The position numbers and the translations under genes are program-made. Below the pieces are notes generated by a model, which saw nothing but the letters and a program-made list of their open reading frames with translations, did no database searches and was not told the origin of the DNA. Positions 11,551-13,576 of a stretch of 46,321 bases of DNA are shown here, piece after piece. How positions within the stretch are numbered: position 1 is the first letter of the stretch; each line of letters starts with the position of its first letter. The DNA comes from Candidatus Solibacter usitatus (GTDB lineage Bacteria; Acidobacteriota; Terriglobia; Bryobacterales; Bryobacteraceae). The stretch covers positions 1-46,321 of the forward strand of contig JACRBC010000143.1 in the NCBI GenBank assembly GCA_016213245.1. Direction: 5' to 3'.

Positions 11551-12069
11551 ATGTGGAAACAAGCTGGATTCTGGTTGCGCGACCTGACGCTGTCGATGCT
11601 CATCGCGCTGGTGGTCATTCTGTTCCTGTACCAGCCGGTGAAGGTGGAGGGCACCAGCATGATGCCCGCGCTCAGCAACGACGAGCGCGTATTCATCAAT
11701 AAGTTCGTCTACAAGCTGGGCCTGGGCGAGGTCGAACGCGGCGACACGGTGGTGTTCTGGTATCCCGGGGACCCGACCAAGTCCTACATCAAACGCGTGA
11801 TCGGGAAGCCTGGGGATATGGTCGAGGTGCGGCAGGGCGCCGTGTATCTGAACGGGGCCATATTGGACGAACCCTACGTACCGGAGGAGTTTCGCGACCG
11901 CGGTTCGATGGCGCCGCTGCGCGTCCCGGCCGGCCAGTACTTCGTCCTTGGGGATCACCGCAGTTCCTCCAACGACAGCCGAAACTGGGGCCCGGTGCCG
12001 CGTGGCGCCATCTACGGCAAGGCCGTATTCGCCTACTGGCCTCCCGAGCGCGTGGGCGTGGTGCGCTGA
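11551..12069 (+). CDS. lepB: signal peptidase I
   Basis: Cleaves signal peptides from exported proteins at the outer face of the inner membrane. With the ATG at 11551 the protein has 172 residues: a short cytoplasmic N-terminus (MWKQAGFWLRD), one membrane helix (about 12-27), the box EGTSMMPAL with nucleophile S36, SYIKRVIGKPGD with general-base K81, and GDHRSSSNDSRNWG near the C-terminus. An upstream in-frame start at 11491 would add 20 residues rich in Arg and Cys and overlap the glycosyltransferase start, so it is less likely. The gene ends convergently with the DUF2905 gene, overlapping it by 37 bp. Confidence 0.94.
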   Translation: MWKQAGFWLRDLTLSMLIALVVILFLYQPVKVEGTSMMPALSNDERVFINKFVYKLGLGEVERGDTVVFWYPGDPTKSYIKRVIGKPGDMVEVRQGAVYLNGAILDEPYVPEEFRDRGSMAPLRVPAGQYFVLGDHRSSSNDSRNWGPVPRGAIYGKAVFAYWPPERVGVVR

Positions 12070-12299
12070 GGGGGCTCACCGCCGGCGGAAGAGCAGACCA
12101 GCACCGAAAGCGCCAAACTCAGCAACAGGCAGGTGACCACCGGAAAGTAAAAGGTGGAGTTGCGCCCCCTGATGACGATGTCGCCCGGCAGGTGGCCCAG
12201 CCGGAACGGCAGGCGCGCCGAGAGCAGCAGCAGCAGCCCGGCGGCTAACAGGGCGGCGCCGGCGAGCATCAGGATGCGGGCCACGGCGGGCACGGACAT
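12033..12299 (-). CDS. DUF2905 small membrane protein
   Basis: An 88-residue protein with two membrane helices (about 8-28 and 52-70) around the loop LPFRLGHLPGDIVIRGRNSTFYFPV, the hallmark of DUF2905. The function of the family is unknown. The ATG at 12299 is the natural start. The same frame stays open upstream as far as 13544, but that extension crosses a structured noncoding region and shows no protein-like composition, so I exclude it. The 3' end overlaps lepB (opposite strand). A candidate large RNA is transcribed away from it, starting about 190 bp upstream. Confidence 0.82.
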   Translation of the reverse strand: MSVPAVARILMLAGAALLAAGLLLLLSARLPFRLGHLPGDIVIRGRNSTFYFPVVTCLLLSLALSVLVCSSAGGEPPQRTTPTRSGGQ

Positions 12300-12456
12300 T
12301 GTTCCAGCATAGCGCTCCGGGAGCGCCGCCGAGTGGGAGAACAAATCCGGTGACGCACGTTTTATGCACAGACAATCCACAGAGGGCGTCCTGCAAGCGA
12401 TTGATTCTAAGGGAAATAAAGATTGAGGAAGAGAGCCGCCGGAGTGCATTTTTCCT

Positions 12457-12485
12457 TTGACTGCAAACCGCAAGTGATGCATATT
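12457..12485 (+). promoter_or_regulatory. sigma70-like promoter of the candidate large RNA
   Basis: TTGACT (12457-12462, 5 of 6 to consensus), a 17-bp spacer and CATATT (12480-12485, 4 of 6). The predicted start of transcription is near 12491-12493, exactly at the 5' strand of the helix that closes the RNA. No plus-strand protein gene follows before the terminators at 13089-13146. Confidence 0.6.
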
Positions 12486-12490
12486 GGACG

Positions 12491-13096
12491 TGGTTCCAAG
12501 AGGTTCACGGAACGGCGAGCCAAAGGGAATGTAGCGGATCCGGAACGGTGATCCGCCGGCGCTGAGACTAAAAGATCCGCCGGTGGGGAGCGAAGGGAGA
12601 TCGGGCATTTCTGGAGGTAAGCCTTCTGTTCGGCAAGCTTGTCTGGGCGCTTTGATCCTGAGGGGCGGCAATCCCGAAGGGGAGCGACGGGCGAGTTGAG
12701 CCGGCGGAAGTGGCGTTGAGCCTGTGGGCAACGGGTTCTGGTTGAAGAACTCCCCGGATGTTCTCGAGATATTCCGAGGAGGGAGACCAGGACGGACCGG
12801 GTTCATGGGGACGGCGTCATGGGACTGAAAAGGTAGGGCAGGAGCTTTGACCCCGCCTTGGCCCGCCCGGCAACGGGTTGGTCGATGTGGGTGAGCGAAA
12901 GGTCGCCTTGAGGTTCCGGCTTCGCACTGGCGATCCAGCCGGCGCGCCGCGTTGCTTTGAAGCGCCAGCGGGCAAATCCCGCAGGTGTGGAGTGACGTGG
13001 TGAGAGCGCCCGGAAAGCCGGATGTGACATGCTCAAGCCTGGCATGCAGGCTGGGGAGCGAGCTGACTCCGAGGGTCACTTGGAACCATTTTTTTT
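12491..13096 (+). ncRNA. candidate large structured noncoding RNA (about 600 nt)
   Basis: No credible protein gene lies between 12300 and 13162. On the plus strand TGGTTCCAAG (12491-12500) pairs perfectly with CTTGGAACCA (13079-13088). That 10-bp helix begins at the start site predicted from the upstream promoter and is followed directly by eight T (13089-13096). Inside are many local helices: 12534-12540 with 12550-12556; 12556-12561 with 12578-12583; 12733-12739 with 12746-12752; a GNRA hairpin CCCG-GCAA-CGGG at 12866-12877; a 10-bp bulged hairpin at 12916-12942; 12968-12972 with 12978-12982; 13036-13041 with 13047-13052. GGGGAGCGA occurs three times. This design (own promoter, ends paired, ornate interior) is that of large RNAs such as OLE, GOLLD and ROOL, but I do not recognise the sequence as any of them. 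Function is unknown. Helices were found by eye, without covariation support. Confidence 0.6.
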
Positions 13097-13146
13097 CGCT
13101 CCCGGGCAGAGGCACAACTCCACCTCCCCGCCGGAGCGTTTTTTTT
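13097..13146 (+). terminator. Rho-independent terminator downstream of the large RNA
   Basis: CGCTCCCGG (13097-13105) pairs with CCGGAGCG (13131-13138) as 8 bp with one bulged C, followed by eight T (13139-13146). It stands behind the first T8 tract (13089-13096), making a tandem terminator on the plus strand. GGCACAA in its loop (13111-13117) can pair with TTGTGCC (13145-13151) to form a pseudoknot. The U-tracts face plus, so it does not serve the minus-strand gene that ends at 13163. Confidence 0.7.
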
Positions 13147-13162
13147 GTGCCTGCTGCCGCCC

Positions 13163-13576
13163 TCAAACGTCGTGCAGTTCCTGGTAGTCGGAGTGAGGCG
13201 CCGAGTACGGGGCCGCCTCGCCGGCCGGGCGCACGTACTTCTCGCGCCTCGGCCGCCAACTGACGAAGTTGCGGCGGCAGGGGTCGCAGCGCCAGCGGTA
13301 CCAGCCCAGCCAGACCTTGAGATCCATCCAGAGATCGCCGTGGTAATACTTGGGGTCCCAGGTGGAGAGATCCATGCGGAAGCAGCGAGGACAGCGGGCG
13401 AAGGCGGAGGCGCGGGCGCCCATGGGACGGATGACGAAGCGCAGCCGGCAGGAGTTGCAGCGGAATGCGTAAAAGCCCAGCAGCGCCAGCAACCGCTCGC
13501 GCAAGCCACGCATCCGCGTGGTTCGAACATCGGATGAATCGCACTCCGGACAGCGGGCGATTCCCTGTCTGGCCAA
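13163..13576 (-). CDS. double zinc-ribbon protein of unknown function
   Basis: A 137-residue cytoplasmic-looking protein with two copies of a CxxC...CxxC zinc ribbon: CPEC (residues 9-12) with CNSC about 30 residues later, and CPRC with CDPC near residues 64-100. Each second CxxC lies in an aromatic, basic context (AFRCNSCRLRF, RWRCDPCRRNF). The duplicated pattern suggests internal duplication and a metal-bound structural or nucleic-acid-binding role; no enzyme motif is seen. It ends 17 bp from the terminator of the large RNA, which runs towards it. It may belong to a minus-strand series with the aminotransferase and HipA-like genes further along, but the latter are transcribed from their own upstream side. 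Confidence 0.75.
   Translation of the reverse strand: MARQGIARCPECDSSDVRTTRMRGLRERLLALLGFYAFRCNSCRLRFVIRPMGARASAFARCPRCFRMDLSTWDPKYYHGDLWMDLKVWLGWYRWRCDPCRRNFVSWRPRREKYVRPAGEAAPYSAPHSDYQELHDV

Follow-up and report, generated by a model that had tools for sequence, protein, structure and literature searches.

The 46,321-nucleotide stretch of Candidatus Solibacter usitatus DNA analysed here (contig JACRBC010000143.1; hereafter the window) almost certainly carries, on comparative grounds, a conserved gene for a structured noncoding RNA at 12492-13087 of the plus strand. We suggest that it encodes a stand-alone large RNA, predicted to be transcribed from its own sigma-70-type promoter. Taken as a single claim, the reading that we favor, namely that of a self-dimerizing structural RNA that acts as a scaffold or compact particle and represents a new family of Bryobacterales type, appears to us reasonably probable. 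The RNA gene, its secondary structure, a kink-turn signature, a self-complementary loop, the promoter and the tail all emerge from the comparison of homologues. An earlier note on this DNA, made from the sequence alone, had proposed a large structured noncoding RNA, and its proposal is borne out by the homologues, by strong overall covariation and by the absence of conserved coding signs; it had overlooked the array of kink-turns, the palindrome in a loop and a conserved module upstream of the gene. The gene and its signals are as follows.

12492-13087, plus strand: large noncoding RNA of 596 nt, from the predicted start to the end of the closing helix (108 distinct full-length homologues and covariation)
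12457-12462, plus strand: -35 element TTGACT (promoter scan and conservation in homologues)
12480-12485, plus strand: -10 element CATATT (promoter scan and conservation in homologues)
13089-13096, plus strand: T8 tract, predicted transcript end (direct reading and T-rich tail in homologues)
13097-13146, plus strand: second hairpin with T8 (direct reading; equivalent seen in locus L002)

The signals at both ends of the gene can be read directly and recur among the homologues. The ten bases TGGTTCCAAG at 12491-12500 are exactly complementary to CTTGGAACCA at 13079-13088, the T8 tract follows immediately, and a second hairpin (CGCTCC at 13097-13102 with GGAGCG at 13133-13138) runs into T8 at 13139-13146. 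An equivalent of this second terminator is visible only in the nearest relative, L002, most of the other loci being displayed for only some tens of bases beyond the first tail. The promoter, TTGACT and CATATT separated by 17 bp, is the sole match of the scan in 12050-13300, where shuffled sequences gave a mean of 0.0. Thus the promoter, the perfect 10-bp helix joining the ends with its immediate T8 tract, and the second hairpin terminator, all of which had been noticed earlier, are present as described. At the place of the -35 element, TTGAC or TTGAT is found in all 106 homologues with enough upstream DNA; 17 bp is the best-scoring spacer in 90 of the 106 (with ties broken towards 17), and the distance from the -10 element to the first GG is 6 nt in 100 of them. 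A T-rich tail (at least 8 T in 16) follows the RNA in 96 of 107 homologues. Judged from these alignments, the conservation of promoter and tail is greater than chance would give. The single-sequence fold is also more stable than shuffled sequences (z -6.0, from 20 shuffles only).

The secondary structure is drawn from 173 loci with a profile match, 155 of which have both ends and give 108 distinct sequences, with lengths of 580-642 nt in 103 and of 492-579 nt in five. Consensus folding of this 108-sequence alignment gave 182 pairs. In an APC-corrected G-test against 30 null alignments generated by simulation on the tree, 66 of the 182 consensus pairs covaried at E<0.05 when scaled to the 182 structure pairs. 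With all 179,101 column pairs as the scale, 27 pairs did so, and no pair outside the structure reached E<0.05 (best 0.5). The consensus structure of this test was predicted from the same alignment, and a hold-out was made with related sequences: when the structure from 27 sequences was laid over L001 and 78 further sequences, 82.2% of cells paired, compared with 69.7% when shuffled and 35-47% when slid. In the hold-out, both partners change at 139 of its 181 pairs, and covariation was 0.403 against at most 0.168 when slid. Five of its 33 helices were weak (helices 3, 8, 19, 24 and 31, with 32-50% of cells paired), and these helices of the 27-sequence structure should be redrawn. Covariation is strong overall by both the tree-based null and the hold-out. 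The layout is a closing helix, P1, that joins the ends, and six arms, of which arms 2-4 are grouped behind a long-range helix. The earlier count of at least seven internal hairpins is replaced by this layout of six arms plus a long-range helix, whose parts, apart from arm 6, are listed here.

12492-12508, plus strand: closing helix P1, 5' strand (98.7% of hold-out cells paired, mostly by invariance)
13071-13087, plus strand: closing helix P1, 3' strand (hold-out pairing)
12619-12623, plus strand: long-range helix around arms 2-4, 5' strand (two of five pairs covary at E<0.05)
12918-12922, plus strand: long-range helix around arms 2-4, 3' strand, partner of 12619-12623 (covariation test)
12519-12618, plus strand: arm 1, putative kink-turn with GA 12550-12551 and GA 12588-12589 (G,A,G,A in 108 of 108)
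12624-12709, plus strand: arm 2, putative kink-turn with GA 12654-12655 and GA 12682-12683 (G,A,G,A in 103 of 108)
12711-12819, plus strand: arm 3, putative kink-turn with GA 12747-12748 and GA 12783-12784 (G,A,G,A in 94 of 108)
12821-12917, plus strand: arm 4, putative kink-turn with GA 12849-12850 and GA 12893-12894 (G,A,G,A in 95 of 108)
12926-13023, plus strand: arm 5, putative kink-turn with GA 12959-12960 and GA 12990-12991 (G,A,G,A in 94 of 108)

P1 runs on past an A.A mismatch, so that 12492-12508 pairs with 13071-13087. Its outer nine pairs are near-invariant, and double changes that keep a pair occur only at pair 7, in 1 of 27 and 2 of 79 sequences. Because the helix hardly varies, a covariation test of it, which the earlier note had named as a check, is nearly powerless, and the outer closing helix is thus backed by conservation rather than by covariation.

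Five of the six arms carry a kink-turn signature and are predicted to bend. In each of arms 1-5, one strand consists of three unpaired bases, GA and the outer helix, while the other runs from the outer helix through GA to the inner helix. Kink-turns are defined by a 3-nt bulge, tandem G.A pairs and helices on both sides; these features were found in all five arms, with a short inner helix in arms 1, 4 and 5. If the bulge is 3 nt long, the innermost-facing helix can form its first pair in 108/108, 104/107, 100/103, 106/106 and 104/107 sequences for arms 1-5, respectively, whereas with a bulge of 2 or 4 nt it forms in at most 35%, except in arm 2 with 2 nt (78/103, mostly U-G). The inner (C) helix of arm 1 has a single conserved pair (108/108), the next one forming in 22/108; arm 2 has three conserved pairs, and arms 4 and 5 have about two each. 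Since the inner helix ends after a few pairs in arms 1, 2, 4 and 5, these kink-turns are less standard.

The sixth arm ends in a self-complementary loop.

13032-13056, plus strand: arm 6 hairpin (covariation test and hold-out)
13042-13047, plus strand: loop hexamer GCATGC, self-complementary and predicted to act as the kissing loop of a homodimer (loop counts in homologues)

Among the first 27 homologues, this hexamer is GCATGC in 21 and GCTAGC in 6. At the fixed columns of all 108, it is GCAUGC in 84, and 14 of the other 24 are self-complementary when G-U is counted; the resulting 98/108 was reached in none of 2000 column shuffles (mean 74.9, largest 83). Read by eye, the loops comprise 96 strict palindromes (GCAUGC 84, GCUAGC 7, GUAUAC 2, UCUAGA 2 and ACAUGU 1), five with G-U pairs, four with a 4-base palindromic core, and three in which none could be placed (L052, L062 and L075); these classes are the eye's, the automatic hairpin finder having chosen other registers for some loops and CGGCCG for L075. 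All three pairs of the hexamer change on both sides somewhere among the homologues. Since neighboring bases of a single molecule are unable to pair with each other, the switching between palindromes argues for pairing between two copies. The same argument is made for the kissing of OLE and GOLLD in the available text of PMC12286853. The loop thus covaries between palindromes, five of them strict, as expected of a homo-oligomer, and in the tree-null test of the 108 sequences its pairs are without significance because most sequences share GCAUGC. We consider homodimerization via the arm 6 loop likely, judging from these loop sequences.

The family has been found so far only in one Acidobacteriota order, of Bryobacterales type, where matches to it occur in over half of the genomes sampled. 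A search for homologues, as the earlier note had proposed, revealed relatives in many genomes of this type: DNA matches occur in 27 of 61 genomes (including its own and a weak 38-base match in G050), and R1, a covariance model of the 5' domain, matches 143 of 250 order genomes with completeness of 70 or more, in 59 of 82 genera. The R1 matches are confined to its own family plus one in family f2, to which the DNA search adds a second f2 genome, G039; in the phylum sample R1 matches 2 of 396 genomes, both of its own family. Both R1 searches used stricter filters, which lose weak matches. The 107 order genomes of 250 without an R1 match suggest that the RNA is dispensable in them or too diverged. 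Shorter, diverged relatives were reached through the profile of the upstream module described below, namely L235 (from about 1640; in G075, which is R1-negative) and L242 (from about 1637; in G123), which retain the kink-turn sequence of arm 4 and of arm 1, respectively; the homologue counts are therefore lower bounds. In a collection of species genomes (84,980 genomes), a pattern of the 5' part found 113 stretches whose record titles are Acidobacteria, Bryobacterales, Solibacter, Terriglobia and the like, with the exception of L117, whose title, "Acidimicrobiia bacterium", looks wrong. One host record, Bryobacterales bacterium F-183 (L059), is not labelled a metagenome bin. By hand count, 35 of the 143 positive genomes have two or three R1 matches (for example G036, G028 and G169), some of which, such as those of G204, may be assembly duplicates. 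In G036, both RNA copies have the switched loop GCTAGC. A phage or plasmid element was rejected, since the 5' pattern had no match in viral contigs and the large RNA none in 50,697 phage records (blastn) or in plasmids.

From these patterns we infer that the RNA is transcribed, actually kinks and dimerizes, and we infer its function as well. It would be transcribed from its own sigma-70-type promoter, and a helix would pair its first and last bases, so that six arms project from a closed core, with arms 2-4 grouped behind the long-range helix. Arms 1-5 would each bend at a kink-turn, and the loop of arm 6 would pair with its counterpart in another molecule to give at least a homodimer. By analogy with OLE, ROOL and GOLLD, the RNA would most likely serve as a compact particle or as a scaffold that assembles itself, rather than as a riboswitch, a guide or an mRNA. 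An RNA-only scaffold is our best guess from the analysis as a whole.

Another reading is that of a ribonucleoprotein scaffold, in which the five kinked arms dock a clade-specific protein and dimerization is secondary. Repeated similar modules would suit the repeated binding of one protein. OapC is a protein of the L7Ae type. In the available text of PMC12286853, it may be bound by the kink-turn of OLE. However, PF01248 (the L7Ae family) was found in 0 of 187 order genomes with completeness of 90 or more (the control was positive in 7 of 14 genomes), so that a partner of the kind proposed for OLE is absent from this set and an L7Ae ribonucleoprotein was rejected; ions and contacts between RNA segments probably stabilize the kinks instead. 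Neither does any neighboring gene stay constant across the 108 loci. In the window the neighbors encode signal peptidase I, aminotransferase IV, DUF2905 and, at a score under the Pfam cut-off, a zinc-ribbon-like protein; over the 108 loci, aminotransferase IV occurs at 45, zinc-ribbon at 37, a cluster with a YCF48/BNR-like representative at 37 (typically about 153 bp upstream of the RNA), DUF2905 at 12 and signal peptidase at 7. We therefore give a ribonucleoprotein scaffold limited credence and retain the RNA-only scaffold.

The control of the gene may extend beyond its promoter, as a conserved module lies upstream of it and recurs before a second, smaller RNA-like element.

12356-12437, plus strand: conserved upstream module, 86-position profile (profile R2, E 2.8e-16 here)
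12362-12370, plus strand: DnaA-box-like site TTATGCACA; some 11 bp downstream of it stands a second half-site, ATCCAC
G000:C49:33908-33983, minus strand: second hairpin RNA-like element of about 76 nt, also at L246-L256 and L244, with the same upstream module

Profile R2 was built from 46 loci, the window locus included; one of these aligned loci, L132, apparently lacks the module. The site at 12362-12370 is the sole perfect TTATNCACA, the DnaA-box consensus, in the 46-kb window (0.23 expected). A perfect TTATNCACA lies at -250 to -60 of 84 of the 106 homologous loci, and 69 of 85 such sites are at -130 or -131, compared with 4 occurrences in 582,942 bp of flanking DNA. At E<1e-4, R2 found exactly one match beyond the large-RNA loci, diverged ones included, in 15 of 18 hand-chosen genomes, the exceptions being G123 (none further), G040 (none) and G016 (a single match at 1.0e-4). 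Twelve of 14 inspected module sites, that of G016 included, are followed by a hairpin of some 76 nt that is conserved, the other two belonging to L235 and L242; this inspection omits further sites in G122, G222, G234 and G254. The apex of the hairpin, AUCUC-GGGG-GAGGU, is near-invariant, and its stems vary in sequence yet pair. Rfam gave no match at the first five of these second sites, and a model of the small RNA matches 2 of 396 phylum genomes, both of the same family as the window's genome, and misses G222. As the module stands upstream of both, two unlisted RNAs apparently share one control element, which offers a handle on regulation.

It would be tempting to see in the large RNA a trans-acting regulator tied to replication or growth, whose synthesis is controlled by the DnaA-box-like module and whose targets are RNA polymerase, ribosomes or the small hairpin RNA. 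The frequency of the perfect site and the recurrence of the 86-bp module before the small hairpin would fit this idea. However, the site may belong to another regulator, the large-RNA locus is away from dnaA in three near-complete genomes, and two or three matches occur in about a quarter of the positive genomes. On balance a regulator of this kind seems unlikely, and a link of the module to replication or growth is speculative. Still more doubtful is the combined idea that a protein-free, self-closing, dimerizing particle with five kink-turns is made together with the 76-nt GGGG-loop RNA under the DnaA-box-like module, its number tracking replication or growth; if true, this would be a replication-coupled RNA assembly to which we know of no parallel. 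A replication origin was considered because of the DnaA-box-like site and rejected: the distance between dnaA and the RNA is about 2.14, 0.29 and 3.28 Mb in G182, G183 and G006, respectively, perfect DnaA boxes are scattered and not clustered in these three genomes, and a genome may have, as noted above, two or three matches to the RNA. In 20 samples each of G182 and G183, GC skew was too irregular to be informative. G005 has nine matches to the DnaA ATPase family, eight of them weak and perhaps due to transposon-borne IstB-like proteins.

Returning to the self-dimerizing structural RNA, we propose that it constitutes a new family, unlisted in Rfam 15, the Solibacter-1 motif having been compared by description only. 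No Rfam 15 family reaches its gathering score in the window, and over 20 of 30 homologous loci only two tRNAs do, neither over the large RNA, in agreement with the earlier statement that no known family could be recognized; at E up to 5 there is only a snoRNA match (E 2.5). A box C/D RNA was rejected, with a best match of 12 bits against a cut-off of 39 and no L7Ae in the 187 order genomes. The families OLE, GOLLD and ROOL are in Rfam, and membership in any of them was rejected for want of a match at gathering score. The earlier comparison with the design of these RNAs is thus apt in kind and does not extend to a match with the families themselves. GOLLD has a tRNA-island setting and is carried by phages or prophages, whereas the large RNA matches neither Rfam nor phages. 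Both are large ornate RNAs with a palindrome-covarying loop, that of GOLLD being a symmetric kissing loop that covaries between palindromes (available text of PMC12286853). The same text describes OLE as an RNA of about 600 nt with a kink-turn and a homodimer backed by a palindrome-switching loop; the large RNA resembles it in size, kink-turn signature and loop, the dimer being described for OLE and predicted here, and differs in that OLE belongs mostly to Bacillota while the large RNA belongs to Acidobacteriota, has five kink-turn signatures and lacks an Rfam match. ROOL, of about 650 nt, is described there with no known protein partner and with intermolecular kissing loops, in phages and prophages (PMC12286853); size, the lack of a known protein partner and kissing loops (predicted here) are shared, and unlike ROOL the large RNA is without a match in viral contigs or phage records.

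Two further RNAs invite comparison. The Solibacter-1 motif, named after Solibacter usitatus, an Acidobacterium, is rated "?" and has no Rfam number in the part of PMC2864571 that bears on it (Table 1); of the 113 records, not one is titled Solibacter usitatus, and identity with this motif, set apart by description only, therefore seems unlikely. The Soda Lake RNA (smtA motif) is likewise a large, clade-restricted, structured RNA with no assigned function, and differs in being found only in Thioalkalivibrio, upstream of smtA (available text of PMC11109978). In the open literature, a scope that leaves most subscription papers outside, there was no paper on Bryobacterales noncoding RNA and none under the name "Solibacter-1 motif"; the Acidobacteria names searched for are absent from the main text, as far as available, of papers on 26 and 50 genomes. 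Large structured bacterial RNAs without an assigned function are few. The present one comes with 108 distinct full-length homologues and a covariation-backed secondary structure, and it would add an independent case of predicted RNA homodimerization combined with a repeated kink-turn architecture, so that a further phylum becomes open to tests of why large RNA particles are made by bacteria.

That the gene encodes a ribozyme, or a known housekeeping RNA in disguise, is highly improbable. Its size and the single match in most positive genomes would suit such an RNA, but no Rfam family covers it in the window or in the 20 loci, and RNase P RNA (RF00010) was located elsewhere, not at the large-RNA locus, in 14 of 14 genomes tested, which rules out that identity.

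The idea of a minus-strand protein gene with no RNA (a 503-aa ORF at 12033-13544) has a frame open in its own genome in its favor and is negligible in our estimate, since only 159 of 1618 indels relative to L001 have a length divisible by three, any frame is open end to end in only 22 of 108 homologues, and the DUF2905 domain of the ORF lies outside the RNA. These counts make conserved coding unlikely and suggest that purifying selection on codons is absent across the homologues, in line with the earlier view that the stretch holds no credible protein gene. The DUF2905 gene itself, at 12033-12299 of the minus strand, is in frame at the end of this ORF, which probably crosses the RNA by chance.
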